From NCBI RefSeq assembly GCF_024707105.1, contig NZ_JANQAJ010000009.1, positions 310,001 to 374,000 on the forward strand: a DNA stretch of 64,000 nt. The letters are read 5' to 3'. The DNA comes from Devosia ginsengisoli. GTDB taxonomy: Bacteria; Pseudomonadota; Alphaproteobacteria; Rhizobiales; Devosiaceae. This document shows, in pieces, positions 7,891-43,630 of the stretch. The translations under genes and the position numbers were made by a program. Positions within the stretch are counted from its first letter, which is position 1, and each line of letters opens with the position of its first letter. The notes below the pieces were generated by a model. The model was given only the letters and a program-made list of their open reading frames with translations. It made no database searches and was not told the origin of the DNA.

Positions 7891-7989
7891 TGAGGTCTCA
7901 ACAGACCTCATCCTGAGCCTGTCGAAGGACGAGGTCGTGGCACCATCCAGCCACGTCCTCATGGTTCGACAGGCTCACCATGAGGACTA
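7891..7989. repeat. Intergenic palindromic repeat, family B copy 1
   Basis: Contains CCTGAGCCTGTCGAAGGACG and, in the opposite sense, ATGGTTCGACAGGCTCACCA, forming an imperfect dyad. Similar copies lie near 10094, 25457 and 31630. It lies inside the transporter gene run. Confidence 0.75.
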
Positions 7990-8006
7990 CTGAAGGGCCT
8001 TACGCC

Positions 8007-10003: not shown

Positions 10004-10173
10004 CCGAGCCCCCCTTCTCCCCTTGCGGGAGAAGAGCCTGCCCCGGACGCGATCCGGGGTGCCCGAAGGGCGGATGAGGGGTCTGCGATCTCGCCACGCC
10101 CTCGTGGTACGACAAGCTCACCATGTCCCAGTAGACCTCATCCTGAGCCTGTCGAAGGACGAGGTCGTGTCAC
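10004..10173. repeat. Adjoining palindromic repeats, families A and B
   Basis: 10004-10086 is a family A copy (CCCTTCTCCCCTTGCGGGAG) with an inserted small dyad around CCCCGGACGCGATCCGGGG. 10094-10173 is a family B copy (CCTGAGCCTGTCGAAGGACG). They separate the second permease from the ATPase gene. Confidence 0.75.
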
Positions 10174-18366: not shown

Positions 18367-20352
18367 GTGACGATAAGAACGCCCCTGCGGAACTGGTTCG
18401 GCCGGCGCCACCTGACCGCCGCGGGCATCGGCCTGCTCGTCGTGCTGCTCGTGGCATGGGCCTCCTTCGAGATGACCCTCAACGCCACCATTCTCGATAC
18501 CCGCGAACAGGCCCAGCGGCGCCTCGCGCTGTTCGAGCGCACGCTGGAGGCCATCATCGAGCGCTTCCACTACCTGCCCGTGGCCATCTCCCAGGCCCGC
18601 GAAACCCGCGCGGCGCTGACCAATCCAGACGATCCGGCTGCCGTCGAGGAGGCCAACGGCTTCCTCTCCAAGCTCAACGAAACCGCCGGCGCCGGCGAGA
18701 TCTTCCTCATGGAGGACGATGGCGCGGTGGTCGCCGCCAGCAACTGGTGGACGCTGACCAGCCTGGTCGGCACCAACTATTCCTTCCGCCCCTATTTCGC
18801 CGACGCCATGCGGCTCGGCCGGGCGCAATTCTATGCCTTCGGCATTTCCACCAGCGTGCCCGGCTATTTCCTCTCCCAGCGCGTGGATGGCCCCGATGGC
18901 CCCCTGGGCGTGGCCGTCACCAAGATCAATCTGGGCGAGATCGAAGCCACCTGGTGGCGCTCGGGCGAGCTCATCGGCATTGTCGATCTCAACGATGTGG
19001 TGATCCTCTCCACCCGCCCCGACTGGCGCTACCGGCCGCTACAGACCATTCCCCGCTCGCGCGTCGAAGCCATTTCCAGCCAGTTGCGCTATGGCGAAAA
19101 CGGCGTCGACAATGCCGGCATCATCACCGACCGCTGGTTCTCCCGCGGCGCCGAATTCGCGCTGTTGGCGGGCAGTGATCCCGAGACCTCGGGCTATTTC
19201 GTGCTGCAGGAACTGCGCCTGCCCAAGCATGGCTGGGAACTGCTGTCCTTCACCCCGCTCACTCCGCTCTATGGCGTCGCCTGGACGGCCGCCGCCGCCG
19301 CTGGCCTGGGCGCCGCGGCCCTGCTGCTCATCATCGTGCTGCTGGTGCAGCGCCAGCGCATCGTCGCCCAGCGCCTGGCCGATCATGAACGGCTCGAACA
19401 GCGCGTCGCCGAACGCACCGAAGACCTCCATATCGCCAACGAGGCCCTGCGCGAGGAAATCGCCGAGCGCATCCGAGCCGAAAAGGCCGAGCGCGAAGCC
19501 CAGCACGGCCTGGTGCAGGCCGCCAAGATGGCCAGCCTCGGCCAGGCCCTGGCCGGCGTCGCCCATGAGGTCAGCCAACCCGTCGCCGCACTCACCACCC
19601 ATCTCGCCAGCGCCAAGCTCATCGCCAGCCGCCAGGACGATGCCGAAGTCACGGCCATCCTCTCCACCATGGACAAGGTGGTCGACCGCCTCTCGGCCCT
19701 GACGAGCCACCTCAAGACCTTCGCCCGCAAGGAGACGCGCGTCGAAATGCGGGCCGACCTCGCCACGGTCATCGCCAATGCCCTCGATCTGGTCGATCAC
19801 AAGTTGCGGGCCTTCGGCATCGACGTCGAATATCGCCGCCCGCGCGCCATCCTGGTCTCGGGCAATCCCGTGCATCTCGAACAGGTGCTGATCAACCTCA
19901 TCGCCAATGCCGCCGACGCCATGGAGCACAGCCCCGTTCGCGTGCTCTCCATCGGAGTCGTCAAGGCGACCGGCACCGTCGAAATCGCCGTATCCGACAC
20001 CGGCTCGGGCATTGCCGCGGCCGAACTCTCCAACCTGTTCGACCCCTTCTATTCCACCAAGGAGGCCGGGCGGGGCCTCGGCCTCGGCCTCTCCATCTCC
20101 TACGGCCTCGTCCGCGATATCGGCGGCGCCATCACCGTCGACAGCCGTCCCGGCAAGGGCAGCACTTTTACCGTGCGCCTGCCGCTTGCCCACGCTGCGC
20201 CGGGCTCCTCACCATCCCCCCAACCACCGCGTCATTCCCGCGAAGGCGGGAATCCACTCTTCGGCTCCCAGTCCGATACAACAATGGATTCCCGCCTTCG
20301 CGGGAATGACGTCGTGGTCGAAACCACAATCACGCAAAGATCAAAGCAATGA
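18367..20352 (+). CDS. DctB-type sensor histidine kinase
   Basis: A 661-residue membrane kinase. There is a transmembrane helix at about 15-33, a large periplasmic dCache-like sensor region, a second helix (AAAAGLGAAALLLIIVLLV) near 330, a coiled linker, and the HisKA box with the phosphorylated histidine in AHEVSQPVAAL. The ATPase domain has N-box NLIANAADA, DTGSGI, LFDPFYST and GLGLGLS. This arrangement matches DctB, which senses C4-dicarboxylates. The GTG at 18367 follows GGGAAAGG; earlier starts would overlap the putative activator sites. The last ~45 residues come from a palindromic repeat (HSREGGNPLF, DSRLRGNDVV) and are probably dispensable. It overlaps the regulator gene by ATGA and is divergent from tctC. 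Confidence 0.85.
   Translation: MTIRTPLRNWFGRRHLTAAGIGLLVVLLVAWASFEMTLNATILDTREQAQRRLALFERTLEAIIERFHYLPVAISQARETRAALTNPDDPAAVEEANGFLSKLNETAGAGEIFLMEDDGAVVAASNWWTLTSLVGTNYSFRPYFADAMRLGRAQFYAFGISTSVPGYFLSQRVDGPDGPLGVAVTKINLGEIEATWWRSGELIGIVDLNDVVILSTRPDWRYRPLQTIPRSRVEAISSQLRYGENGVDNAGIITDRWFSRGAEFALLAGSDPETSGYFVLQELRLPKHGWELLSFTPLTPLYGVAWTAAAAAGLGAAALLLIIVLLVQRQRIVAQRLADHERLEQRVAERTEDLHIANEALREEIAERIRAEKAEREAQHGLVQAAKMASLGQALAGVAHEVSQPVAALTTHLASAKLIASRQDDAEVTAILSTMDKVVDRLSALTSHLKTFARKETRVEMRADLATVIANALDLVDHKLRAFGIDVEYRRPRAILVSGNPVHLEQVLINLIANAADAMEHSPVRVLSIGVVKATGTVEIAVSDTGSGIAAAELSNLFDPFYSTKEAGRGLGLGLSISYGLVRDIGGAITVDSRPGKGSTFTVRLPLAHAAPGSSPSPQPPRHSREGGNPLFGSQSDTTMDSRLRGNDVVVETTITQRSKQ
20231..20317. 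repeat. Palindromic repeat, family E copy 1, inside the 3' end of the kinase gene
   Basis: GTCATTCCCGCGAAGGCGGG and its inverse CCCGCCTTCGCGGGAATGAC flank a 35-base spacer. A second copy lies at 43494-43573. Here the repeat is translated as part of the histidine kinase tail. Confidence 0.8.
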
Positions 20353-25427: not shown

Positions 25428-25456
25428 CGCCAATAGCCCGCATGATGCGGGCTTCA

Positions 25457-25501
25457 GTAGCCCTCATGGTGAGCCTGTCGAACCACGAGGGCGTGGCACC
25501 A
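25457..25501. repeat. Palindromic repeat, family B copy 3
   Basis: CCTCATGGTGAGCCTGTCGA and AACCACGAGG, between convergent hrpB and hyi. It overlaps the last codons and stop of the hyi gene. Confidence 0.75.
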
Positions 25502-28580: not shown

Positions 28581-29372
28581 ATGATGACCCTGAAATTCGT
28601 GGTGCTGAGCGACCTGCATGTCATGCCCGAGGGCGAATTGTCGGTCACGCTCGATACCGGCGCGAGGCTGGAACAGGCGGTCGAAGCCGTCATCGCCCGC
28701 TACGATCATGTCGATTTCTGCGTGCTGGCCGGCGACCTGGCCGATCTGGGCCAGCCAGCCGCCTATCAGCGCCTGCAAGCCATCATCGCCCGCCTGCCCA
28801 TCCCGGTGCATATCACCCTGGGCAATCACGATGACCGCGCGTCATTCCTCGCGGTTTTCGGCAATGGTTTCGTCGCCGAGACCGGCAAGGTCGACAAGGT
28901 CATCGATATCAAGGGCTATCGCATCATCCTGCTCGATTCCTCCGAGCCCGGCCGCGTCGATGGCATTCTTACCGAAACCCAGATTTCCTGGCTGCATGCG
29001 CGTCTGGCCGAGGCCATGGACCGCCCCGTCATCGTGATCCTCCATCACAATGCCAACGCCCTCCATATCGAATCGGACAATATCCGTATTCTCGAGCCGG
29101 CCGCCTTCATCGACGCGCTCAAGACCCATCCCGATATCCGCCAGGTCATTGCCGGCCATGTCCACCTGACCTCGACCGCCACCTGGCGCGGCCTGCCCTT
29201 CACCACCCTGTCAGGCAATCACTATTCCTGCAGCGTCGACCAGCCCCACATCCCCATGCGCCGCCTCACCGGCCCCGGCCAGCTCGCCTTCGTCATCGCC
29301 GACCAGGACAGCACCACCGTCCTCTTCGACGACTATATCGACGGCAATACAGAGATTTTCCTGGAAGACTGA
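28581..29372 (+). CDS. Metallophosphoesterase (CpdA-like cyclic-nucleotide phosphodiesterase family)
   Basis: A 263-residue calcineurin-fold enzyme with all five metal-site motifs: D-x-H in LSDLHV (D11, H13), GDLADLG, GNHDDR, the HHN motif (ILHHNAN) and GHVHLTS. The size and the order match the CpdA class of 3',5'-cAMP phosphodiesterases, though related phospholipid or nucleotide phosphodiesterases cannot be excluded. Cytoplasmic. The start ATG follows TGAGAGG. A structured repeat and two valine tRNA genes (other strand) lie beyond its stop. Confidence 0.82.
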   Translation: MMTLKFVVLSDLHVMPEGELSVTLDTGARLEQAVEAVIARYDHVDFCVLAGDLADLGQPAAYQRLQAIIARLPIPVHITLGNHDDRASFLAVFGNGFVAETGKVDKVIDIKGYRIILLDSSEPGRVDGILTETQISWLHARLAEAMDRPVIVILHHNANALHIESDNIRILEPAAFIDALKTHPDIRQVIAGHVHLTSTATWRGLPFTTLSGNHYSCSVDQPHIPMRRLTGPGQLAFVIADQDSTTVLFDDYIDGNTEIFLED

Positions 29373-29412
29373 CGATCCCCCGGCAGGCACCATTTGCCCA
29401 TATTTCGGGTCA

Positions 29413-29510
29413 GGCCGAGGCGAAAATGCCCGTTCCCGAGAACCGGCGCGCAGCGTGCGTTCGGCACGTGAGCACCGGAAGCGGAGGGAATAGGTATTTG
29501 CAGACCGCCT
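29413..29510 (+). ncRNA. Structured repeated element, copy 1 (candidate RNA or DNA element)
   Basis: A long imperfect dyad with outer arms around GGCGAAAATGCCCGTTCCC and GGGAATAGGTATTTGCAG...CGCC, and an inner 5-bp stem CGTGC/GCACG (29454-29458 and 29464-29468). The loop carries ACCGG...TGAGCACCGGAAGCG. Copies at 33680-33795 and 38368-38462 keep the same layout with different paired bases, which supports a folded structure. Function unknown. Confidence 0.5.
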
Positions 29511-29530
29511 TCACCGGAAGCGAAGGCAAA

Positions 29531-29605
29531 TGGTGGGAGTAACAAGGATTGAACTTGTGACCCTTCGCGTGTGAAGCGAATGCTCTCCCGCTGAGCTATA
29601 CTCCC
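29531..29605 (-). tRNA. tRNA-Val (CAC)
   Basis: A 75-base tRNA with encoded CCA. The acceptor stem pairs GGGAGTA with TACTCCC. The D arm contains TAGCTCAGCGGGAGAGC, the anticodon loop is TTCACAC (anticodon CAC) between TTCGC/GCGAA stems, and the T arm is ACAAGTTCAATCCTTGT. It is the second of two valine tRNAs in tandem downstream of cpdR on the same strand. Confidence 0.95.
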
Positions 29606-29635
29606 GTCGCCATTGGCGAAAGTCTACTAGAGAGA

Positions 29636-29710
29636 TGGTGGGCGTAACAAGGATCGAACTTGTGACCCCCTCGATGTCAACGAGGTGCTCTCCCGCTGAG
29701 CTATACGCCC
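29636..29710 (-). tRNA. tRNA-Val (GAC)
   Basis: A 75-base tRNA with encoded CCA. The acceptor stem pairs GGGCGTA with TACGCCC, the anticodon loop is TTGACAT (anticodon GAC) on a CCTCG/CGAGG stem, and the T arm is ACAAGTTCGATCCTTGT. It lies 30 bases before the other valine tRNA, so the two are probably processed from one transcript. Confidence 0.95.
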
Positions 29711-29934
29711 ATCTCTCCGGGATGGAAGAGCCGCTTGGGCCCGTCCAGTGGCGCGGATAGACCATAAAACCCGGTTTGGGGTCAAGAGGCTTCGACGCCG
29801 CCCGCAGGGACAAATTGCGCCTGTGGAGCAATTTGGGCGGCGAAGGCCATGAGAGCTACGCTCCAATGGCGGGATCGGCGTTCTAAGACCATGTGGAAAC
29901 TCGCCCCACCACCGTGGGTGGGGATGAGTATCGG

Positions 29935-30294
29935 TCAGGCCGCCAGCAGCCGCTCGACCTCGTTGACCAGGTCCTTGAGATGAAACGGCTTTGACAACAC
30001 CGAGGCATCCTTGGGCGCGTCGCTATCGGGGTTCAGCGCCACGGCGGCAAAGCCGGTGATGAACATCACCTTGAGGTCCGGATCGAGCTCGGTGGCGCGC
30101 CGCGCCAGCTCGATCCCGTCCATTTCCGGCATCACGATATCGCTGAGCAGCAGCGAGAACGGTTCCTCGCGCAGGCGCTCATAGGCCGAAAGCCCGTTAT
30201 CGAACGACACGACCTCGTAGCCCGCATTCTTGAGCGCACGCGTCAGGAACTGGCGCATGTCGTTATCGTCTTCCGCGAGCAGGATTCGCTTCAT
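29935..30294 (-). CDS. cpdR: Response regulator CpdR (cell-cycle proteolysis adaptor)
   Basis: A single-domain receiver of 119 residues with no output domain. It has the acidic pocket in AEDDND, the phosphorylated aspartate in LLLSDIVMPEMDG (about D51), the threonine in FITGFA and the lysine in SVLSKPFHLKDL. The sequences MFITGFAAVAL and LSKPFHLKDLV strongly match Caulobacter CpdR, which when unphosphorylated directs ClpXP to degrade CtrA and other cell-cycle proteins. The ATG at 30294 gives the normal 118-120 residue length. Its kinase phosphorelay (CckA/ChpT) is not in the window. It is divergent from an N-formylglutamate amidohydrolase gene, an arrangement I recall as common in this order. 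Confidence 0.93.
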   Translation of the reverse strand: MKRILLAEDDNDMRQFLTRALKNAGYEVVSFDNGLSAYERLREEPFSLLLSDIVMPEMDGIELARRATELDPDLKVMFITGFAAVALNPDSDAPKDASVLSKPFHLKDLVNEVERLLAA

Positions 30295-30544
30295 CAGGGG
30301 TCTCCGGGCATTCAACTTGCGCTGCCGGATCGCTCCATCCGGCGCGGACGCAGGAGCGCGACGCATGCCGCGCTGTGAGTCGGACTATATAGCGCGATGT
30401 TTAAGCGAAGTTTGCCTCCATGCAATCGCAACCCGTTCCCATCAGCAATTTTGCGACAATCTGGACAAGCCGGGCGCAAAGGGCGACACTGCAAAGGCAA
30501 ATCAGTGCGGCGTCGTTGGCAAGGCGCCTGTTTGGGGAGGCATC

Positions 30545-31441
30545 GTGCGGTCCGACTATTGGGATCAGCCGGCATTCGAAACCATCCGGCCCCGCCGGCT
30601 GGTCACACCTTTGGTGTTCAATTCGCCCCATTCCGGCCGGGTCTATCCCGAGCGCTTCCTCGCCATGACCAGGCTCGATCACCTCTCGATCCGCCAGTCC
30701 GAGGATGCCTGGGTCGATGAACTTTTCGCCCGCGCGCCCCATCTCGGCGCCCCCATGCTGCGCGCGCATTTCCCCCGTGCCTATCTCGATGTGAACCGCG
30801 AACCCTGGGAACTCGACCCCACCATGTTCGTGGAGCCCCTGTCCGAGCGCTTCAACACCACTTCGCCCCGCGTCGCCGCCGGCCTGGGCACGCTGGCCCG
30901 CGTCGTGGCCGAGAACAAGCCCATCTATCGCGACAGGCTGACGCTCGAGGATGCACGGATGCGCATCGAGGGCATTTACCACCCCTATCACGCGGCTTTG
31001 CAGAAGCTGCTCAGCGAAGCCATATCCGCCTTCGGCGTGGCCCTGCTGATCGACTGCCATTCCATGCCGCGCATTACCCGCTCCAATGACAAGGCCGCGC
31101 CCGATATCGTCCTGGGCGATCGCTACGGCACCACCTGCGCTCCGGGCCTGGTCGATCTGGCCGAAACCATATTCGCCAGCGCCGGCCTCAAGGTCGCCCG
31201 CAACCGCCCCTATGCCGGGGGCTTTGCCACCCGCACCTATGGCCGCCCGCAACACGGCGTGCACGCCCTCCAGATCGAGATCAGCCGCCACCTCTACATG
31301 AACGAGGTCACCCTGGCCCGCAATGACGGCTTCGACGCCGTCCGCGCTTTGGTCGAACGCCTGATCTTCGCCCTGATCGGGCTGGATCTGGTGTCACTGG
31401 TCGGCAGCACCCCCGCCATCGACAAGGAAGCGGCGGAATAG
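30545..31441 (+). CDS. N-formylglutamate amidohydrolase family protein
   Basis: A 298-residue member of the FGase (HutG-II) family, zinc-dependent. Motifs include LVFNSPHSGRVYP near residue 25, RAYLDVNREPWELDP near 80, LLIDCHSMPR near 160 and QIEISRHLYMNE near 240, which supply the metal ligands and substrate contacts. It hydrolyses N-formyl-glutamate or similar N-acyl acids in histidine degradation, but no other hut genes are nearby, so the substrate may differ. The GTG at 30545 follows GGGGAGG; the longer frame upstream is not supported. It is divergent from cpdR. Confidence 0.85.
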   Translation: MRSDYWDQPAFETIRPRRLVTPLVFNSPHSGRVYPERFLAMTRLDHLSIRQSEDAWVDELFARAPHLGAPMLRAHFPRAYLDVNREPWELDPTMFVEPLSERFNTTSPRVAAGLGTLARVVAENKPIYRDRLTLEDARMRIEGIYHPYHAALQKLLSEAISAFGVALLIDCHSMPRITRSNDKAAPDIVLGDRYGTTCAPGLVDLAETIFASAGLKVARNRPYAGGFATRTYGRPQHGVHALQIEISRHLYMNEVTLARNDGFDAVRALVERLIFALIGLDLVSLVGSTPAIDKEAAE

Positions 31442-31452
31442 ATTTTCCTTGT

Positions 31453-31581
31453 TGGATACCCCCCCTCCTAACCTCCCCCTGATAGGGGGAGGAGCCGCAC
31501 TGTGGCTGGGGCAATATAGTGCCAAATCCCCGATCTGTTCCTCCCCCTATCAGGGGGAGGCTAGGAGGGGGTATCCAGAAA
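31453..31581. repeat. Intergenic palindromic repeat, family D copy 1
   Basis: CCTCCCCCTGATAGGGGGAG and, after about 60 bases, CTCCCCCTATCAGGGGGAGG with AGGAGGGGGTATCC. Other copies lie near 35238, 45100 and 45781. Confidence 0.78.
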
Positions 31582-31629
31582 AGACTCACGTCCCCCGCAC
31601 CACCCTGTGCTAGTTACGCCCATCCCTCA

Positions 31630-31672
31630 GTAGACCTCATGGTGAGCTCGTCGAACCACGAGGTCGTGGCAC
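31630..31672. repeat. Palindromic repeat, family B copy 4
   Basis: GTAGACCTCATGGTGAGCTC and GTCGAACCACGAGGTCGTGG, just before the start of the hisN-like gene. Confidence 0.72.
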
Positions 31673-31683
31673 GGACCCCGCCC

Positions 31684-32472
31684 ATGACCCTCGATCTCGC
31701 CAAAATCGAAGCCACCCTCCTCGCCGCCGCGAAAGCCGCCGCAGCCCACACGCTCCCCCTCTTCCGCACCCCCCTCGCCATCGACAACAAGTTCACCGTG
31801 GGCTTCGACCCCGTCACCGAGGCCGATCGCGGCGCCGAAACCGTCATCCGCGCCGTCATTGCCGAAGCCTTCCCCGACCACGCCATTGTCGGCGAGGAAT
31901 GGGGCAGCTCCGGCGACAGCAATGACACCTGGATCATCGACCCGGTCGACGGCACCCGCGCCTTCATTTCCGGCGCCCCCGTCTGGGGCACGCTGATCGG
32001 CTTCGCCCACAATGGCGTGGCCATATCAGGCATCATGAGCCAGCCCTTTATCGGCGAAACCTTCCTCGCCGTGCCCGGCCGCGCCACCTATCGCCGCGGC
32101 GACACCACCACGCCCATCCGCACCAGCGGCCAGATCGACTTGCCCCCCGCCCGCGTTTTCACCACCACCCCTTCCCTGTTCAACACGCCCGAACTGGCCG
32201 GCAAATGGCGGGCCATCGAATCCGCCACGCGCCTGCAGCGCTTCGGCATGGATTGCTACGGCTATGCCCTATTGGCCGCCGGCCACGCCGACCTCGTGGT
32301 CGAGCCCTATCTCAACACCTATGACATCGCCGCCCTGGTCCCCATCATCCGCGAAGCCGGCGGCGCCATCGCCTGCTGGGACGGCAGCGAACCCACTGGC
32401 GGCGGTAACGTGGTGGCCGCTGCGACGCCCGAACTGCTGGAAAAGGCGCTGGCGCTGGTCAACGCCTCGTAA
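31684..32472 (+). CDS. hisN: Inositol monophosphatase family protein, probable histidinol-phosphatase
   Basis: A 262-residue lithium-sensitive phosphatase-fold enzyme with the family's metal motifs: E71 in VGEEWG, D86 and D89 in IIDPVDGTRAFISG, and the C-terminal NTYDIAALVPIIREAGG containing the third aspartate. The DPVTEADRGAE and the FISGAPVWGTLIG segments resemble HisN-type histidinol-phosphate phosphatases, which perform the next-to-last steps of histidine synthesis where HisB is bifunctional or absent. Myo-inositol or other sugar phosphates remain possible. Cytoplasmic. The ATG at 31684 is the first methionine after the repeat and starts MTLDLAKI. Confidence 0.8.
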   Translation: MTLDLAKIEATLLAAAKAAAAHTLPLFRTPLAIDNKFTVGFDPVTEADRGAETVIRAVIAEAFPDHAIVGEEWGSSGDSNDTWIIDPVDGTRAFISGAPVWGTLIGFAHNGVAISGIMSQPFIGETFLAVPGRATYRRGDTTTPIRTSGQIDLPPARVFTTTPSLFNTPELAGKWRAIESATRLQRFGMDCYGYALLAAGHADLVVEPYLNTYDIAALVPIIREAGGAIACWDGSEPTGGGNVVAAATPELLEKALALVNAS

Positions 32473-32498
32473 GGTAGGTACCCGAACGCGCAGTCGTC

Positions 32499-32647
32499 CA
32501 CCCTCCCCCTTGTGGGGAGGGAAGCGAGATAGGACTTAGCCCTTGCTAAGTCCGTTTATCGAGCAGGGTGGGGGTATGGTTCCGCAAACGCGGTGTGCGT
32601 GGCCCCACCCCCACCCTTGATCCCTCCCCACAAGGGGGAGGGAGACG
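32499..32647. repeat. Intergenic palindromic repeat, family C copy 6
   Basis: CCTCCCCCTTGTGGGGAGGG, the ACTTAGCCCTTGCTAAGT dyad, and GATCCCTCCCCACAAGGGGG, between convergent genes. Confidence 0.78.
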
Positions 32648-32661
32648 ACTGAGAAATCAGC

Positions 32662-33636
32662 TCAAGAAGACTGCTCCGTAATAAACGCGTCAAACGCCGC
32701 AAACACCTGTCCGCGGATCGCATCGCTCTCCATGAACAGTTCGTGCCGCGCCCCGGCAATCACCACATGCCGCCCGGTGCGCAGGCGCAGCCCCAATTGC
32801 TCGATGGCCGGCGCCGACACCACCTCGTCCCGCGCTGCCGCCAGCATCAGCAGCGGCACATTGATGCGGGCGGGGAAATTGTCCTCCGCCGCCTCGGCCA
32901 TGGCCCCGAAGGCCGATGCCGCCCAGCGCACGGTCGGCACGCCGATTTCGAGATCCGGTCGCTCCCTGATCACATCGACCGACCGCATATAGCGGATCAG
33001 GTCCCCCGTCAGCGGATTGCCCGGAAAGCTCGCCTCCGACACCGGCTTGTCCGCCTTGCGTCCCACCGGCATCTGCCCCAACCCGAAAAAGCTCAGCGTC
33101 TCGCAGACCCGTGCCATGCCCTTCATGCTCAATGGCTGCCGGTCCAGCGCCAACATGGGCGCTGAGAGAAACACCCGATCGAACATCATCCGATCGTTGA
33201 TCCCGGCAAAGAGCGAGGCCAGCCCGCCCATCGAATGGCCGACGAGATAATAAGGCGGCGGACAATCCGGCAGCAGGATATCGCCATGAAAGCTGCGCAG
33301 GTCGGTCCAGTAATCCTCGAACCGGTCGACATAGCCCAGTTTGCGATTGCCGATCAGCCGGTCCGAGCCGCCCTGCCCGCGCCAGTCGAACGTGGCCACG
33401 GCAAAGCCGCGCCGGCGGAAGTCGGCCACGGTCTCGAAATATTTCTCGATGAATTCGGTGCGCCCCTGCACCAGACAGATCGTCCCCCGATGCGCCCCTT
33501 CCGACTTGGGCCAGGTCGCATAGCGCAACTGCACATTGTCAGCCGTCCGGAAAAAGCCCACCCGTCCACCTTCGGGCATGGGATTGGACGGGATATTGAC
33601 CAGGCTGGGTCCATTGGGATCGACGACGGCGTTCAT
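32662..33636 (-). CDS. Alpha/beta hydrolase (lysophospholipase/monoacylglycerol-lipase-like)
   Basis: A 324-residue alpha/beta-hydrolase with a GHSMGG nucleophile elbow (S135). It also has FDWRGQGGSDRL near 84-95, an aspartate around VPLLMLAAARDEVVSA near 265, and a histidine in GARHELFMESD near 300, completing the catalytic triad. The layout resembles PldB-type lysophospholipases (serine aminopeptidase S33 class). No signal peptide, so cytoplasmic or membrane-associated. It is upstream-adjacent to a structured repeat. True substrate unknown. Confidence 0.85.
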   Translation of the reverse strand: MNAVVDPNGPSLVNIPSNPMPEGGRVGFFRTADNVQLRYATWPKSEGAHRGTICLVQGRTEFIEKYFETVADFRRRGFAVATFDWRGQGGSDRLIGNRKLGYVDRFEDYWTDLRSFHGDILLPDCPPPYYLVGHSMGGLASLFAGINDRMMFDRVFLSAPMLALDRQPLSMKGMARVCETLSFFGLGQMPVGRKADKPVSEASFPGNPLTGDLIRYMRSVDVIRERPDLEIGVPTVRWAASAFGAMAEAAEDNFPARINVPLLMLAAARDEVVSAPAIEQLGLRLRTGRHVVIAGARHELFMESDAIRGQVFAAFDAFITEQSS

Positions 33637-33679
33637 GGGTGGCCCTTCGTGAGGTAGGCACTATTTTCTGTATCGAGAT

Positions 33680-33795
33680 TCGCAGGCCCGCCGAGTCGAA
33701 AATGGCTGGCTCTGAGACCCGGAGCGCAGCGTACATGAGTACGTGAGCACCGGAAGCGCAAGAGACAGCCATTTGCAGACCGGCGGACTGCGAAG
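33680..33795 (+). ncRNA. Structured repeated element, copy 2 (most regular copy)
   Basis: Nested paired arms: TTCGCAG with CTGCGAA, CCGCCG with CGGCGG, AAATGGCTG with CAGCCATTT, CTCT with AGAG, and an inner CGTAC/GTACG hairpin (33731-33735, 33740-33744). Loop sequence ACCCGGAGCG and TGAGCACCGGAAGCG matches the other copies. This and the following terminator account for most of the 358-bp gap 33637-33994. Confidence 0.55.
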
Positions 33796-33806
33796 ATTGA
33801 TGCAGA

Positions 33807-33838
33807 AAAAGAAAACCAGCATCCCGGAGGATGCTGGC
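33807..33838 (-). terminator. Rho-independent terminator (minus strand)
   Basis: A perfect 9-bp stem CCAGCATCC/GGATGCTGG with a 4-base loop. On the minus strand it is followed by TTTTCTTTTT. It lies downstream of the secreted-protein gene that ends at 33995. Confidence 0.8.
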
Positions 33839-33994
33839 TTCCTTGTTGCGGCCCATGCGGGGGCGGGTGATGGGCCGCATTGGGGTTGTGACGAGGTCTC
33901 CCTCAACACATGCCCCCTTCTAGCCGCCCCAGCCTGAACTCGACCGGACTCGTCCGTTCATATTCGGTTCATCCAGAGCCGGCCTCTGCCTGCC

Positions 33995-34477
33995 TCAGTC
34001 ATTCCCGGCCACGCATTGCTGGACATAGATCAACGCCTCGCTCGATCCGCGCAGCGAAATCCTGGCAATGTCGAGTTCGGGCGCCGATACGGTCAGGGTG
34101 CGGCCGCGGCGCAGCTTTTCGATCAGCGCGAGGGTCAGCGCGTCATCGTCAGGTTCGGACCGGTAGAAGAACACAGCGCCGTTCTCGGCGGTGACCGGCA
34201 CCGTGAAGATTTCCCCATCGACGATGAAATCGAGCTGCGGCGGCGCATCGGCGAAAGCCTCGATCGCGGCGGCCGGCTCCAGTTGCAGAAAGAAGGCGCC
34301 GGCATCCGCAAGCCCATCGCCCGAACATTCCAGGCTGACATGGCCATCGGCCGCGCTGCCGCCCCCGGCAGCGAATACCCCCATATTATAATGCCCGCCC
34401 CAGATCGGAGCGGGTTGGGCGTAAGCGGACACGGGCGCGAGGAGCGCGAGCGCCAGCAGCGGAGCGAATGGTTTCAT
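33995..34477 (-). CDS. Secreted protein of unknown function
   Basis: A 160-residue protein with a Sec signal peptide (MKPFAPLLALALLAPVSAYA, cleavage near residue 20). The mature chain contains WGGHYNMGVFAAGGG, two cysteines (LECSG and QQCVAG) that could pair, and alternating strand-like segments such as FIVDGEIFTVPVT, a small beta-sandwich look. No known family recognised. The ATG at 34477 starts the signal peptide and follows GGAAAAG. It is divergent from the small heat-shock gene, and has a strong terminator after it. Confidence 0.65.
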   Translation of the reverse strand: MKPFAPLLALALLAPVSAYAQPAPIWGGHYNMGVFAAGGGSAADGHVSLECSGDGLADAGAFFLQLEPAAAIEAFADAPPQLDFIVDGEIFTVPVTAENGAVFFYRSEPDDDALTLALIEKLRRGRTLTVSAPELDIARISLRGSSEALIYVQQCVAGND

Positions 34478-34553
34478 GAGACTTTTCCCGGTTGCCTGTC
34501 GAGTTGTGACGACAAACGCCCATAATAGGTTCCGCATGGGGCGAAATTGTCCC

Positions 34554-34581
34554 CTTGAACCGGCAAATCCATCCCCCATAT
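34554..34581 (+). promoter_or_regulatory. RpoH (sigma-32) type heat-shock promoter of the Hsp20 gene
   Basis: CTTGAA at 34554-34559 and CCCCATAT at 34574-34581 with a 14-base spacer, a full match to the sigma-32 consensus. Transcription would begin near 34588 and give a leader of about 110 bases containing the ROSE hairpin. Confidence 0.75.
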
Positions 34582-34670
34582 TTCATGCGTTCGCCGGAAT
34601 TGCCGGGAACCCCGACCTCGAAAACCGCTCGCCTGCGACAGGGAGCTTCGGCCGAGACCACCGGGACATC

Positions 34671-34693
34671 CACGTTGCTCACAGGAGAATGTG
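34671..34693 (+). promoter_or_regulatory. ROSE-type RNA thermometer hairpin
   Basis: CACGTTGCTC (34671-34680) pairs across an ACAG loop with GAGAATGTG (34685-34693). The pairing covers the ribosome site AGGAGA, and a bulged G sits in TTGCT opposite the site, the hallmark of ROSE elements. Heat melts the hairpin and frees the ribosome site. Confidence 0.82.
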
Positions 34694-34696
34694 ACC

Positions 34697-35155
34697 ATGC
34701 AGACCATCGATTTTTCCCCCTTCTATCGCTCCACCGTCGGTTTCGACCGCGTCTTCAACCGCCTCGATACCCTTGTCGGGCAGGAAGCCAAGACCTACCC
34801 GCCCTACAATATCGAGCGCACCGGCGATGATGCCTACCGCATCTCGATTGCCGTCGCCGGCTTTGCCAATGGCGACATTGCCATCGAGACCAAGGAGAAC
34901 AACCTGGTCGTGAAGGGCGCCAAGCCCGCCGAGAGCGGCGACAAAACCCGTGAATTCCTCCATCGCGGCATTGCCGAGCGCGCCTTCGAGCTGCGCTTCC
35001 AGCTTGCCGACTATGTCGAGGTTCAGGGCGCCAGCCTCGAAAACGGCCTGCTGCATCTGGAACTGAAGCGCGAACTGCCCGAAAGCAAGAAGCCGCGTTC
35101 CATCCAGATCAGTGCCGGCACCCAGCCGACCATCGAAGACAAGTCGGTAAACTAG
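34697..35155 (+). CDS. Small heat-shock protein, Hsp20/IbpA family
   Basis: A 152-residue alpha-crystallin-domain chaperone. It starts with the IbpA-type MQTIDFSPFYRSTVGFDRVF, has the alpha-crystallin core from about residue 35 (YPPYNIERTGDDAYRISIAV) and the FELRFQLADYVEV and ENGLLHLELKRELPE strands that hold the dimer. It binds unfolding proteins at high temperature for later refolding by DnaK/ClpB. The ATG at 34697 is chosen because AGGAG lies 9 bases upstream; a GTG at 34691 lies inside the thermometer stem. Expression is likely governed twice, by sigma-32 and by the ROSE hairpin. Confidence 0.93.
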   Translation: MQTIDFSPFYRSTVGFDRVFNRLDTLVGQEAKTYPPYNIERTGDDAYRISIAVAGFANGDIAIETKENNLVVKGAKPAESGDKTREFLHRGIAERAFELRFQLADYVEVQGASLENGLLHLELKRELPESKKPRSIQISAGTQPTIEDKSVN

Positions 35156-35237
35156 TCGCGCGGCCTTCCGCGTCGACCGACACCTCCCGGTGACGATAGA
35201 GGCGCAGTCCGCAAGGGCTGCGCCTTTTGCTTGTGGA

Positions 35238-35352
35238 GCACCCCCTCCCAACCTCCCCTAATAGGGGAGGAGCCGCGCAGTGGTTGGGGCAAAACGGTGC
35301 CACAAGCTCGATCGGTTCCTCCCCCTGTCAGGGGAAGGCTAGGAGGGGGTAC
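35238..35352. repeat. Intergenic palindromic repeat, family D copy 2
   Basis: ACCTCCCCTAATAGGGGAGG and CCTCCCCCTGTCAGGGGAAG with AGGAGGGGGTACC, between the heat-shock and dps genes. Confidence 0.75.
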
Positions 35353-35440
35353 CCGCTTTCAGGCAAACAGCCCCACCAACGGAACCTCCCTCGTCCCTGC
35401 AAGTTGAGTCCCAAAACCACCCAGCGTCAAAGGACTCCCC

Positions 35441-35914
35441 ATGAAAACCCCTTCCATCGCCCTCAAAGCCAATGCCAAGTCGGCCGTCATCGACATCCTG
35501 AACGCCCGTCTGGCCGATGCGATCGATCTGGCCCTCATCACCAAGCAGGCGCATTGGAACCTCAAGGGCCCCAATTTTATCGCCGTGCATGAAATGCTCG
35601 ATCCCATGCGCGCCACCATCGATACCCATGTCGATATCATCGCCGAGCGCGTCGCCCAGCTCGACGGCATCGCCCTGGGCACCAGCCAGGTCGTCGCCAA
35701 GGCCACCGCCCTCGCGCCCTATCCCACCGATCTCAGGAAGGTCCCCGACCATCTCGCGGCCCTGGCCGAGCGCTTCGCCGCCCTGGCCAACCAGGTCCGC
35801 GAAGATATCGACGCCACCGACGAGGCCGGCGATGCCGATGCCGCCGACATCCTCACCGCCTTTTCGCGCGACCTCGACAAGAACCTCTGGTTCATCAAGT
35901 CCCACCTCGAATAG
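35441..35914 (+). CDS. dps: Dps, DNA-protection ferritin-like protein
   Basis: A 157-residue ferritin-like protein of normal Dps length. It has the ferroxidase-site motif: histidine in TKQAHWNLKGPNF (about H39), then HEMLDPM with D and E, and the DTHVDIIAERVAQLDG segment with further ligands. Twelve subunits form a shell that oxidises iron using peroxide and protects DNA in starvation and oxidative stress. The start follows AAAGGACTCCCC. A lone gene between palindromic repeats. Regulation is not visible. Confidence 0.95.
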   Translation: MKTPSIALKANAKSAVIDILNARLADAIDLALITKQAHWNLKGPNFIAVHEMLDPMRATIDTHVDIIAERVAQLDGIALGTSQVVAKATALAPYPTDLRKVPDHLAALAERFAALANQVREDIDATDEAGDADAADILTAFSRDLDKNLWFIKSHLE

Positions 35915-35970
35915 CGTCAGGAACAGCGGGCCCACCCGAGGGAGCGTTGACTTCGGAGGCATGGGCAGGC

Positions 35971-36110
35971 TTGCCCTCTCCCCTCGTGGGAGAGGGTGGA
36001 AATCCGCGTCCAGCGGATTTCCGGGAGAGGGGTCTGCGTCATCCCATGCTTCAATGTCTACTGCCCCTCATCCGCCCTTCGGGCACCTTCTCCCACAAGG
36101 GGAGAAGGGA
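35971..36110. repeat. Intergenic palindromic repeat, family A copy 4
   Basis: TTGCCCTCTCCCCTCGTGGG and CGGGCACCTTCTCCCACAAG; very close to the copy at 752-904, including the central CAGCGGATTTCCGGG. It fills most of the 330-bp gap 35915-36244. Confidence 0.8.
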
Positions 36111-36244
36111 AGAGTGGGGCGGGGCCACGCGCACAGGGCCAACGGCTCCATCCTCTCGCGCATCTGAACGTCCTGTTCATGCGCCGGTCAGTGCATTTCT
36201 CCCAGTCTTGCGCCATAATAGGTCCGCGTTCCGGGAGACTTGCC

Positions 36245-37306
36245 ATGTCCTTGCCTCTTCCTCGCCTACGCCCTGCCTGCCTCATTCTGTCCGCCGCGCT
36301 GCTCGCCGCGATGCCGGCCGCCCGCGCCGCCGATTTTCTCGCCACCGACACCTGGCCCATGGCCGCCGCGCAGCAGGCCCTGGCCGACGAGATCGGCGCT
36401 GCCCTGGTCCACGACATCACCATCGATGCGGACAGCATCTTCATCACCGCCGACCACGCCGCCGATCCCGAACAGACCACCGACTATTCCTGGGATGGCG
36501 TGAGCGTGCGCCAGGGCATCAGCATGCCCAATTTCACCGCCATGGGCATGGGCGACACCGAGCCCTTCCCCCTCGCCGATCTGCCGTTCGATCGCCTCCC
36601 CGCCGTCAAGCGCGCGGCCATCGCCGCTTTCGCCTTGCCCGAAGCGCAGATCACCGAGATCGAAGGCACCATGCCGACCACCCGCACCAGCAAGAAGCTC
36701 ATTCCGCTCTGGGAGGTGCATTTCGCCCGCTCCGGCGGCGAAACCGGCTCGGTCCTGCTCACCGCCAATGCCCAGGTGCTCGATGTCATCTCGCCCGCAA
36801 GCCAGCAGGTCGAAGCCGGCCCCTGGCTCGCCCCGGCCACCGTGGCGGCCACTTTGGCCCGCCTCGGCGCGGAATTCGGCCCCAATGCGCGCTATGCCGA
36901 AATCCTCATCGATGACAGCAAGGCGCTGGTGCAGATGGAGGACCCGCGCAATCCCGGCCAGCTCGTCGAAATCTACGTCACGGCCGATTCCATAAGGCGA
37001 CAGGATTCGATGATGATGGGCATGGCCAACCCGTTCGGCCCCACGCTGGACCGCGCCTTCACCCTGTCCGACATTGCCGCGCTCGACCCCGACAGGCTGG
37101 CCGACCTGGAACAGCGCACCATCGCGCGCATGGGCATGCCCGGCATGAGCGTCTTCCGCTACACCATCTCCCGCTCCGTCCTGTTCATGACGCCGGAAGA
37201 TGATCGCCTCGTCGTCGAAGTGCGCGCCGAACTCTCCGACGGCTGGACCGGCGGCCGCGTCGCCTACGATATGGCGGGCAACGAGGTCGATGTGGTCACG
37301 CCCTGA
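36245..37306 (+). CDS. Secreted protein of unknown function, possibly PepSY-like
   Basis: A 353-residue protein with a signal peptide (RLRPACLILSAALLAAMPAA, cleavage after ARA near residue 28). The middle part has ALPEAQITEIEG and IPLWEVHFARSGGETGSVLL, which recall a PepSY-type alpha+beta fold, but the assignment is weak. Near residues 257-261 there is a run of methionines (SMMMGMA). Otherwise unremarkable. The ATG at 36245 begins the signal peptide; there is a GGGAGA site upstream. It precedes a methyltransferase on the same strand. Confidence 0.6.
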   Translation: MSLPLPRLRPACLILSAALLAAMPAARAADFLATDTWPMAAAQQALADEIGAALVHDITIDADSIFITADHAADPEQTTDYSWDGVSVRQGISMPNFTAMGMGDTEPFPLADLPFDRLPAVKRAAIAAFALPEAQITEIEGTMPTTRTSKKLIPLWEVHFARSGGETGSVLLTANAQVLDVISPASQQVEAGPWLAPATVAATLARLGAEFGPNARYAEILIDDSKALVQMEDPRNPGQLVEIYVTADSIRRQDSMMMGMANPFGPTLDRAFTLSDIAALDPDRLADLEQRTIARMGMPGMSVFRYTISRSVLFMTPEDDRLVVEVRAELSDGWTGGRVAYDMAGNEVDVVTP

Positions 37307-37370
37307 TCGACCGCTTGCCTCGGCCCGTCCGATCCGCCACGCTGGCCCGGCAGCCATAAGGAGCCGGGCC

Positions 37371-37970
37371 ATGGCCAAGTTCGCCGACAATTTCGAAGGC
37401 TGGTACAAATATGCCGAACGCGCCGCCGGCCGCCCGCCGCGACCGCTGCTTGTCGAAGCCGTTACCCGTGCGTCCGGCCGTGAGGCGGCGCTCGATATCG
37501 GCGCCGGCGCCCTCAACGATACCATCCACCTGCTCGGCGCCGGCTTCGCCCATGTCACCGCGCTCGACGGCGAACCCATCGCACAGCAGATCGCTGATAC
37601 GCTTCCGCCCGACCGCTTCGCCTATGTCATCTCCCGCTTCGAGGATTTCGCCTTCCCGCCGGCGGCCTATGACCTGCTCAACGCCCAATATGCCCTGCCC
37701 TTCATCCGGCCCGACCGGTTCGACCGGGTCTTTGCCGCCATCCTCGCCGCGCTGAAGCCCGGCGCCATTATCACCGGCCAGCTCTTCGGCGATCGCGACG
37801 ACTGGGTCGGTACATCAGGCATGACCTTCCACACCCGCGCCGCGGCCGAAGCCCTCCTCGCCCCGCTCACCCTGCTCAGCTTCCGCGAAGAAGACGACCC
37901 CAACAGCCAGACCCTCAACGGCACCGCCAAGCACTGGCACCTCTTCCACTTCCTCGCCCGCCGCGACTGA
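37371..37970 (+). CDS. Class I SAM-dependent methyltransferase
   Basis: A 199-residue methyltransferase. Motif I is ALDIGAGALNDTIHLL (about residues 40-55), the acidic end of strand 2 is in TALDGEP, and motif IV appears as YDLLNAQYALPFI. The C-terminal sheet ends with NGTAKHWHLFHFLARR. It resembles small TehB/Methyltransf_23-type enzymes acting on small molecules. AAGGAG lies directly upstream of the ATG. Substrate unknown. Confidence 0.8.
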   Translation: MAKFADNFEGWYKYAERAAGRPPRPLLVEAVTRASGREAALDIGAGALNDTIHLLGAGFAHVTALDGEPIAQQIADTLPPDRFAYVISRFEDFAFPPAAYDLLNAQYALPFIRPDRFDRVFAAILAALKPGAIITGQLFGDRDDWVGTSGMTFHTRAAAEALLAPLTLLSFREEDDPNSQTLNGTAKHWHLFHFLARRD

Positions 37971-37999
37971 TGCGGCGCTTTCGCGACTCAGCACGCATC

Positions 38000-38190
38000 A
38001 AAGTCCTACAGATGCACTCAGATCAAAATAGGCAAACCAACCGAAATCCCGCTCAAAATAGGGATTTTGCTCAAAAACTATTCATAGTGCTCACAATTTA
38101 GGCGAAATAGCCGATTTAGTCGCCAAAACTCCTACAAATCCTATAGTGAAATATCGCCTTTCCTATAGATTTTTCACAAAGTCCAGCTTT
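38000..38190. other. AT-rich island with short repeats upstream of gltB
   Basis: Clearly richer in A+T than its surroundings. It contains CAAAATAGG twice, a 7-bp inverted repeat AAATCCC/GGGATTT (38044-38067), GGCGAAAT...ATTT...TCGCC (38101-38124) and TCCTATAG twice, 22 bp apart (38139 and 38161). It lies in the 726-bp gap 37971-38696. No gene seen. A regulatory role is possible. Confidence 0.45.
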
Positions 38191-38367
38191 GGCGCTTGCT
38201 CGCAGTTTTGAATTATGCAAATGTGCCGGCGTTAGGGCAGCACACCTGTCCTATCTGACGCGTCGCCCCGCTCTCCGCGGCCAGCGCGCACGCTGGTCCG
38301 GCTGGCCCGCTCTGCATGAGCGGAAACGGATAGGCGGGGTTGAGACGGTCCGAAGGAATTCGCTTCA

Positions 38368-38462
38368 GGCCGCGCCGAAAGGCAGGGTTTGCCAGAACCG
38401 GAGCGAAGCGTAGACTGCTACGTGACGCCGAACCGGAGCAGACCCTGGCTTGCAGGCCGGCA
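38368..38462 (+). ncRNA. Structured repeated element, copy 3
   Basis: Outer arms CAGGGTTTGC (38383-38392) and GCAGACCCTG (38438-38447), inner stem CGTAG/CTACG (38409-38413, 38418-38422), loop parts AACCGGAGCG and GAACCGGAGC. Less regular than copy 2 but with the same order of stems. It lies between the AT-rich island and gltB. Confidence 0.45.
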
Positions 38463-38696
38463 TCATGCGAAAAACGACGACCGGCCCGAATTGAGTGGCC
38501 ATTTGGATGCAGCGCCACTCCCCACGCATGGACGCGTTGCGCTTCCGAGCCGTACTCTATAGTACGACCCGCCTGAACAATGCGCCCACAGAGGAACGAA
38601 ACGCATCCAGTCCGCCGCACGCCGGCACCATCAGGATGCACACGACATAGCGACAAGGCCCGGTAACGGGCACGACCAGCGAACGAGGAACATGCC

Positions 38697-43445
<4,749 letters not shown>

Positions 43446-43493
43446 CGCCTCAATCTTCACCTCCCCTTGCTGGGGAGGCCAAAACCCACCGGG

Positions 43494-43573
43494 TCATTCC
43501 CGCGAAAGCGGGAACCTCTGTTGACCAAACCAGAAGCGAAACAGAGGTCCCCGCTTTCGCGGGGATGACGTGG
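43494..43573. repeat. Palindromic repeat, family E copy 2
   Basis: CATTCCCGCGAAAGCGGGAA and CCCCGCTTTCGCGGGGATGA with about 35 bases between, in the gltB-gltD gap. Confidence 0.8.
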
Positions 43574-43630
43574 TGATCGGAATAAATGGCGGTCTGACCA
43601 CCGCAAGTGCAGCAGTTAGGGGCACGACAA

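Follow-up and report, generated by a model that had tools for sequence, protein, structure and literature searches.

A covarying intergenic hairpin family in Devosia and other Alphaproteobacteria, possibly a fold-dependent mobile repeat

A 64,000-nt stretch of the Devosia ginsengisoli genome (assembly GCF_024707105.1, contig NZ_JANQAJ010000009.1, forward-strand positions 310,001-374,000; hereafter the window, whose own coordinates are used throughout) carries three similar intergenic hairpins on its + strand, raising the question of what kind of element they represent. The original prediction, made from the sequence alone, offered three readings: a small RNA family, an mRNA processing element and a non-autonomous mobile repeat. 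The last is the best supported of these, as copy number ranges from none to at least 48 within the genus, similar copies occur within one genome, and copies are present or absent at syntenic sites. The interpretation that we favour, while being only half persuaded of it, is that the three copies are members of a non-autonomous, fold-dependent mobile hairpin repeat whose ends are of the YTAR/TA type and of which some copies were then kept in place.

All three copies are present in the sequence, and each is matched by a covariance model of the family (model R1, built from 26 diverse members) with bit scores of 119.6, 107.2 and 84.1 for copies 1, 2 and 3; given that the three copies are themselves among the 26 model-building rows, this match is in part built in. 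Blastn, run independently on the same genome with copy 2 as query, recovered copy 1 (E 2.2e-12) and missed copy 3, the lowest scorer, which the family model recovers. Each copy forms one long stem-loop. The arm pairs quoted originally for the short hairpin (CGTGC/GCACG, CGTAC/GTACG and CGTAG/CTACG) and for the outer arms (AAATGGCTG/CAGCCATTT and CAGGGTTTGC/GCAGACCCTG) are correct; of the two sequences said to stand beside the short hairpin in all copies, ACCGGAGCG is exact in copy 3 only, with ACCGGCGCG in copy 1 and CCCGGAGCG in copy 2, and TGAGCACCGGAAGCG is interrupted in copy 3. The extent of about 100-115 bp given at the time covers only the inner part, since the hairpins reach further on both sides, to 136-148 nt (Table 1), those of the family being about 145 nt. 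Predicted folding energies are -71.7, -83.6 and -64.9 kcal/mol on the + strand and -70.1, -75.2 and -57.2 kcal/mol on the minus strand for copies 1, 2 and 3, and none of 200 shuffles folds as well as any + strand copy (z of -2.85, -8.74 and -5.67, on shorter spans). The short motif alone is unremarkable in the window, with 35 matches at up to one mismatch against 34 expected.

Selection on folding, as originally proposed, is strongly supported by covariation among the 26 members, by the mispairs of a larger set of elements and by compensatory change at orthologous loci. In the alignment of the 26 members (A2), 92.2% of 1083 cells are paired against a shuffled mean of 73.6, both sides have changed in 28 of 42 pairs (192 such cells), and the covariation score reaches 0.495, compared with 0.152 when shuffled. 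None of 500 shuffles reaches the observed values of pairing or covariation, and shifting the partner by 1-3 columns lowers the paired cells to 28-40% (at most 40.3%). Recurrent asymmetric internal loops with GA facing GNA interrupt the stem; the inner two hardly vary, and the outer one comes in two versions, CGAAAA/TTTGCAG and a CAGNTG-like/CAGATG type. Distant members within the class keep the inner loops with a changed inner helix, CCGC/GCGG (L213) or CGTGG/CCACG (L224) replacing CCGG/CCGG.

The mispairs also identify the folding strand. With an arm alignment whose scoring treats G.U and A.C alike, the helix cells of 120 elements from named genomes comprise 3420 Watson-Crick, 265 G.U, 73 A.C and 256 other combinations, with G.U exceeding A.C in 94 elements and falling below it in 9. 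The 76 Devosia elements (78 counted on both strands, less two duplicates), several of which are orthologous and hence not fully independent, give 2134, 172, 38 and 164 respectively, with G.U the more frequent in 60 and the less frequent in 6. The helix positions were picked after inspection of the per-position table. Over all positions, G.U and A.C number 399 and 347 (120 elements) and 245 and 211 (Devosia), since there the fixed mismatches of the loops count as A.C and a single position with a U.G majority counts as G.U. From the helix excess of G.U over A.C it follows that selection for folding acts on the core-sense strand; the excess is compatible with folding as RNA or as single-stranded DNA and does not separate them. 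Sorted by flanking gene context, the G.U/A.C counts are 71/20 (L+R-), 113/30 (L-R-), 4/2 (L+R+), 18/1 (L-R+) and 59/20 (overlapping or unclear); sense transcription in place is unsupported as the source of the strand signal, the excess being similar whatever the orientation of the flanking genes.

The covariance-model search that had been called for shows a family extending through Devosia and into other genera. In the genome of origin, model R1 and blastn with copy 2 each find 14 places, 13 of them in common, the differing ones being copy 3 (R1 only) and a partial place, C14:1014221 (blastn only). R1 matches 62 of 75 Devosia genomes at E<=0.001, with at least 48 copies at the upper end, and leaves 13 without a match. 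A pattern scan of named genomes found at least 118 stretches, 76 of those listed being in Mesorhizobium; the other genera among the stretches listed include Phyllobacterium, Agrobacterium, Rhizobium, Brucella (B. tritici), Stappia, Bosea, Sphingosinicella, Sphingopyxis, Asticcacaulis, Devosia and Acidocella, along with one Nitrospirae metagenome-assembled genome (MAG). By blastn, 31 plasmid records match copy 2 and 36 match a Mesorhizobium element; phage sequences gave no blastn match with the latter. In a sample of the class, 40 of 385 genomes match at E<=1e-4 and 21 of 385 at 60 bits or more; in a sample of the phylum, 42 genomes outside the class match at E<=1e-4, none of those listed above 53.5 bits. 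With 53.5 bits as the best listed score outside the class, weak matches were treated as generic hairpins and the class count is given at the 60-bit cut-off, a conservative one, as an in-class match of 50.3 bits (L224) still shows the loops.

The Rfam comparison yielded no family: at gathering score, Rfam 15 gives two tRNAs only in the window, and at E up to 5 the interval 29300-38600 holds a single match, below threshold (RF03128, 29.4 bits where 33 are needed, E 0.19), at 29507-29539, which overlaps the outer right arm of copy 1 and the tRNA end. A literature search found no description of the family, with most subscription papers outside its reach, so that its undescribed status is not proven; a text search for the core sequence returned no connected paper as judged by titles and abstract openings. 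The Nitrospirae-labelled MAG (L108, contig MHEO01000082) has one exact core match near a contig end, which could be due to transfer or misbinning.

Comparison of loci among relatives reveals both variable presence and persistence. In one Devosia genome (G006), another locus holds a partner that is 90-93% identical over 150 nt for 9 of 20 copies, and the copy at 331556 is absent from G078 and G049, where the flanking sequence is 92-97% identical; the stop codon of the facing gene lies in the same place in G078, G049, G066 and G082. Copy 2 of the window is present in G000, G008, G064, G077 and G063 (there with an extra apical stretch) and absent from five relatives (G010, G051, G042, G054 and G034). 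Copy 3 is found in full in G000, G008, G051 and G063, as a longer hairpin without the core in G077 and G047, and as a short hairpin with covarying arms (GGACTA/TAGTCC, GGGCTA/TAGCCC, GGTTGT/ACAACC and GGGCT/AGCCC) in G010, G064, G052, G054, G042 and G034. At the copy 1 locus whole arm blocks differ yet pair, G064 and G063 being of one type and G000 of another. Together, presence or absence and conservation at individual loci indicate that copies are gained or lost and that, once present, they can be kept with compensatory change.

Two further forms were seen at these loci. In G063 the copy 2 locus (L322) and the copy 1 locus (L398) carry about 45-75 nt extra in the same part of the core, with GAGCTACGCTCG(A/C)AGGGCTATG in common, as if a second repeat had entered both. 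Upstream of tRNA-Val in G077 (L400), the usual form of copy 1 is missing and an oppositely oriented core lies about 110-160 nt from the tRNA end.

Many of the elements lie right at the end of a neighbouring gene. With genes assigned by a simple gene caller, 89 of the 120 elements have the end of a minus-strand gene no more than 120 nt from the end of their core, and in 61 the stop codon of this facing gene starts 46-50 nt after the core, that is, at the outer end of the right arm; a plus-strand stop stands at the matching left position in 5. The Devosia set agrees (facing gene end within 120 nt in 50 of 76, right-end stop at offset 47-50 in 36, left stop in 8), and annotated plasmid genes place the facing gene end at 40-49 in 7 of 13 elements and at 59 and 95 in two others (13 annotated regions, the core located with 4-5 mismatches in three; a fourteenth region is unannotated). 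The folding strand is antisense to the gene that the element abuts. TA peaks at right offset 49 and left offset 51, also in elements without an adjacent stop, where its frequency is 0.25 on the right and 0.18 on the left in 28 Devosia elements, against about 0.02 elsewhere on the right, and 0.25 and 0.19 in 32 other elements; across the 120 elements, TA on the right peaks highest at offset 36, within the arm (GAATATC) and not at its end. TA at both ends fits a YTAR target with TA duplication, where the first base of the element would complete the stop codon. Within the window, copy 1 is the sole copy to abut a facing gene, its right arm crossing the encoded CCA (29531-29533) of the minus-strand tRNA-Val gene; copy 2 lies between two minus-strand genes, one facing it with its start (an alpha/beta hydrolase gene) and the other with its end, and copy 3 lies upstream of gltB (38697-43445, +).

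In light of these observations, we propose that the element may move in single-stranded form, as its folded core-sense strand, either DNA or RNA, recognized by its shape and loops and not by its end sequence. Such recognition would let lineages drift in sequence while the fold holds, and if only copies whose core strand folds can spread, the arms would drift in pairs and the loops would stay. Entry would be into YTAR sites with TA duplication; in GC-rich genomes TAA and TAG stop codons would provide natural YTAR sites, and the outermost G or A of the element would rebuild the stop codon. Some copies might then be retained in place, perhaps with a structural role at gene ends.

The orientation of the elements adds a further regularity, which, like the right ends on stop codons, goes beyond the original prediction. 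Classed by the GC skew of the surrounding region (C-rich meaning negative skew), the core strand has negative skew in 32 of 32 20-kb Devosia regions from G006 and G010 (31 of the 32 when skew is taken from third codon positions, 29 when it is taken from intergenic bases) and in 18 of 20 further ones (11 of 11 in the genome of origin, 4 of 6 in G064 and 3 of 3 in G033), the two exceptions having an absolute skew of 0.004 or less; the core is thus on the C-rich strand in 50 of 52 Devosia regions. It is so for all three window copies, whose regions overlap, and in 81 of 116 8-kb windows from other genera. The mean coding fraction on the core strand is 0.52 (32 regions), so the coding strand does not explain the orientation. 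Of 60 regions, 48 have an absolute skew of 0.03 or more, and in these the exact core motif occurs 38 to 0 on the C-rich strand, with six other motifs at 57:46, 30:15, 14:8, 14:11, 10:6 and 9:1 (C-rich:other). The G010 and G006 chromosomes (loci L233-L272) show strong, patchy GC skew, up to 0.17 per 20-kb window, which switches sign between regions with no obvious tie to the coding strand.

A search for enzymes that might mobilize the family found a Y1 transposase (PF01797) in just 3 of 75 Devosia genomes (G021, G062 and G067, carrying 6, 2 and 0 copies), and a RAYT-driven repeat is rejected on this ground. A reverse transcriptase (PF00078) is present in 22 of 75, including G052, G049 and the genome of origin, and in none of the six with the highest copy number (G070, G003, G043, G032, G078 and G006), which makes a retroelement-driven repeat unlikely. 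The family has several properties of miniature inverted-repeat transposable elements (MITEs), being small (about 145 nt, too short for a transposase), repeated, polymorphic in insertion and without a gene of its own; it has inverted repeats, but their sequence changes from copy to copy in place of conserved terminal ones, and an autonomous parent was not systematically searched for. ERIC/RU-1, YPAL/RU-2, RUP and Correia, described as bacterial MITE-type intergenic repeats (PMC2229807, PMC2759123), resemble it in their size of about 100-200 bp, long stem-loops, mostly intergenic location and, in several, TA ends. Unlike them, the present family has covarying arms, an unfixed end sequence, nearly invariant inner loops and a near-absolute orientation in Devosia.

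Among alphaproteobacterial repeats, CIR1-CIR4 of Caulobacter and its relatives were reportedly described by Chen and Shapiro in 2003. These are similar in being intergenic, about 110 bp and provided with RNA structure models, and are portrayed as a pair of arms connected through a linker, GANTC standing at a terminal loop (PMC2229807). Identity with CIR is rejected, as the present element is a single hairpin and GANTC is missing in 33 of 120 elements; where present, it occurs mainly at two left-arm positions, in a part of the stem whose bases change along with their pairing partner. The RIME/ABC/Sm repeats of Sinorhizobium are said to go back to Osteras 1995. Like these, and like Bru-RS1/2 of Brucella, intergenic palindromic repeats with copies of 103 and 106 bp (PMC10800456), the family consists of intergenic palindromes of related bacteria, a comparison made by description only. 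S. meliloti pSymB is not among the plasmid records listed by blastn with copy 2 or the Mesorhizobium element, and its positions 1-50000 contain no model match. GTAG REPs, for which movement through single-stranded DNA has been proposed (PMC3733652), share with the family, as do CGTC REPs, a palindromic form; unlike it, REPs are 20-40 bp, tagged and RAYT-linked. IS711, a complete 842-bp insertion sequence, uses a YTAR target with TA duplication (PMC3163539). Its apparent target and end pattern are the same as those of the hairpin family, with no link between the two shown. Integron attC sites have outer boxes of the form RYYYAAC...GTTRRRY; none of the 120 elements has either box in the outer arm stretches tested, and this identity is rejected.

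Several points weigh against a mobile repeat. Symmetric ends and a symmetric target predict neither the orientation bias (50 of 52 regions) nor the greater frequency of stops at the right end than at the left (61 vs 5 of 120; 36 vs 8 of 76), and the variable end sequence is unlike the fixed inverted repeats of usual MITEs. No mobilizing gene emerged from the Y1 and reverse transcriptase searches, DDE transposases not being among those searched for. Even the best G006 copies are about 7% apart, so amplification was not very recent, and at the empty site corresponding to 331556 the left junction has diverged, with no clean target duplication readable. As all eight relatives without a full copy 3 retain some hairpin there, an apparently empty site may be a shortened one. 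Moreover, at a locus next to an argF-like gene (ornithine/aspartate carbamoyltransferase), where the element is common to eight species, mean pairwise identity is 0.911 in the core, 0.485 in the left flank (19 columns) and 0.91 in the coding right flank, a difference between core and left flank which suggests function in place rather than decay; at the copy 1 locus the values for seven species are 0.836, 0.37 and 0.924 (tRNA).

Accordingly, the chief rival, which we take seriously and still regard as doubtful, is a cis-acting structured RNA or 3'-end element kept in place, with a part in mRNA end processing, stability or bidirectional termination, and spread only occasionally. It would account for right ends that lie where the facing gene has its stop codon or tRNA 3' end, for compensatory change at the same locus across species, for the excess of core over left-flank identity (0.911 vs 0.485 at the argF-like locus, 0.836 vs 0.37 at copy 1) and for the hairpin of some kind at the copy 3 site in all 8 relatives lacking the full form. 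It sits poorly with a folding strand that is antisense to the abutted gene, with a G.U excess of similar size where the flanking genes both run in the opposite direction (113/30 in L-R-, 71/20 in L+R-), with an orientation that in Devosia tracks strand composition and not the coding strand, and with the separate GC-rich hairpin (33816-33837) that copy 2 has downstream.

An improbable alternative is a DNA signal that marks one chromosome strand and is read when the core strand is single-stranded, as in priming, pausing or segregation. The position of the core on the C-rich strand (32 of 32 and 18 of 20 Devosia regions, 81 of 116 windows elsewhere) and the 38 to 0 count, more biased than any of the six other motifs, would follow from it; absence from 13 of 75 Devosia genomes and a widely variable copy number would be odd in a chromosome-wide signal, another repeat motif is also biased (9 to 1), and orientation is known relative to GC skew alone, not to the leading or lagging strand. 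Still less probable is that template switching keeps the arms complementary as a mutational process, with no selection on the fold: the arm blocks that differ as wholes yet pair at the copy 1 locus (G064 and G063 type vs G000 type) are what it would produce, but such copying would erase the fixed mismatched internal loops, and it predicts no strand bias, yet G.U stands at 265 vs 73 for A.C. Least credible of all is that the elements are free small RNAs transcribed from promoters of their own, a reading which has RNA-like covariation and the strand signal on its side and against it flanks that differ from copy to copy, copies absent from relatives, no Rfam family at threshold and a strand signal independent of which flanking gene would transcribe the element.

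If the favoured mobile hairpin repeat is taken further, one might tentatively, and at some risk of being wrong, posit a new class of mobile hairpin, with movement as a folded single strand of constant sense, recognition through repeated GA/GNA internal loops and not the end sequence, entry mainly by one end at stop codons and tRNA 3' ends, an orientation tied to replication and neither Y1 transposase nor reverse transcriptase, which then becomes a maintained gene-end structure; we consider this unlikely. Intergenic palindromes tend to be set aside, and two S. meliloti small-RNA screens, as described, excluded regions of annotated repeats before analysis (PMC2573895, PMC2245857); the present hairpin family shows RNA-grade covariation, strand-specific folding, stop-codon placement and, in one genus, near-absolute orientation. 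Movement by shape, if that is what occurs, would bring a shape-guided mobile element within reach of testing; maintenance at gene ends would point to a 3'-end structure that is widespread in Alphaproteobacteria.

Table 1. Hairpin copies, their cores and the abutting tRNA gene, in window coordinates
Feature	Position	Strand	Details
Copy 1	29388..29535	+	full hairpin 148 nt, 49 pairs; model match 29402-29521
Copy 2	33664..33809	+	full hairpin 146 nt, 53 pairs; model match 33678-33795
Copy 3	38347..38482	+	full hairpin 136 nt, 44 pairs; model match 38357-38473
Copy 1 core	29441..29483	+	AACCGGCGCGCAGCGTGC..GCACGTGAGCACCGGAAGCG
Copy 2 core	33717..33758	+	ACCCGGAGCGCAGCGTAC..GTACGTGAGCACCGGAAGCG
Copy 3 core	38397..38441	+	ACCGGAGCGAAGCGTAG..CTACGTGACGCCGAACCGGAGCAG, partly diverged
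tRNA-Val (CAC) gene	29531..29605	-	mature 3' end abutting copy 1

Other structured sequences occur in the same window. Upstream of gltB, a second conserved structured stretch at 38248-38338 (+), TCCTATCTGACGCG...GAGCGGAAACGGATAGG, is present in 12 of 12 Devosia genomes compared; it folds, and in 8 sequences a few of its pairs (4 of 28) show compensatory change, with no Rfam match up to E 1. It is a candidate for a small RNA or a leader of gltB. A conserved GAGTGGC...GCCACTC hairpin (38493-38520, +) lies between copy 3 and gltB, with the compensatory form GAGCGGC...GCCGCTC in some of the Devosia genomes compared. Inverted pairs with GTCATTCCCGCG...GCGGGAATGACG-like sequence at 20223-20318 and 43487-43575 may be CGTC-tagged REPs of the kind reported for Alphaproteobacteria in PMC3733652. 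Another palindromic repeat, CCTCATGGTGAGCCTGTCGAACCA..., is found at 7895-7995, 10093-10173, 25451-25499 and 31624-31672, and its 13-mer TGAGCCTGTCGAA is the motif distributed 9 to 1 on the C-rich strand.

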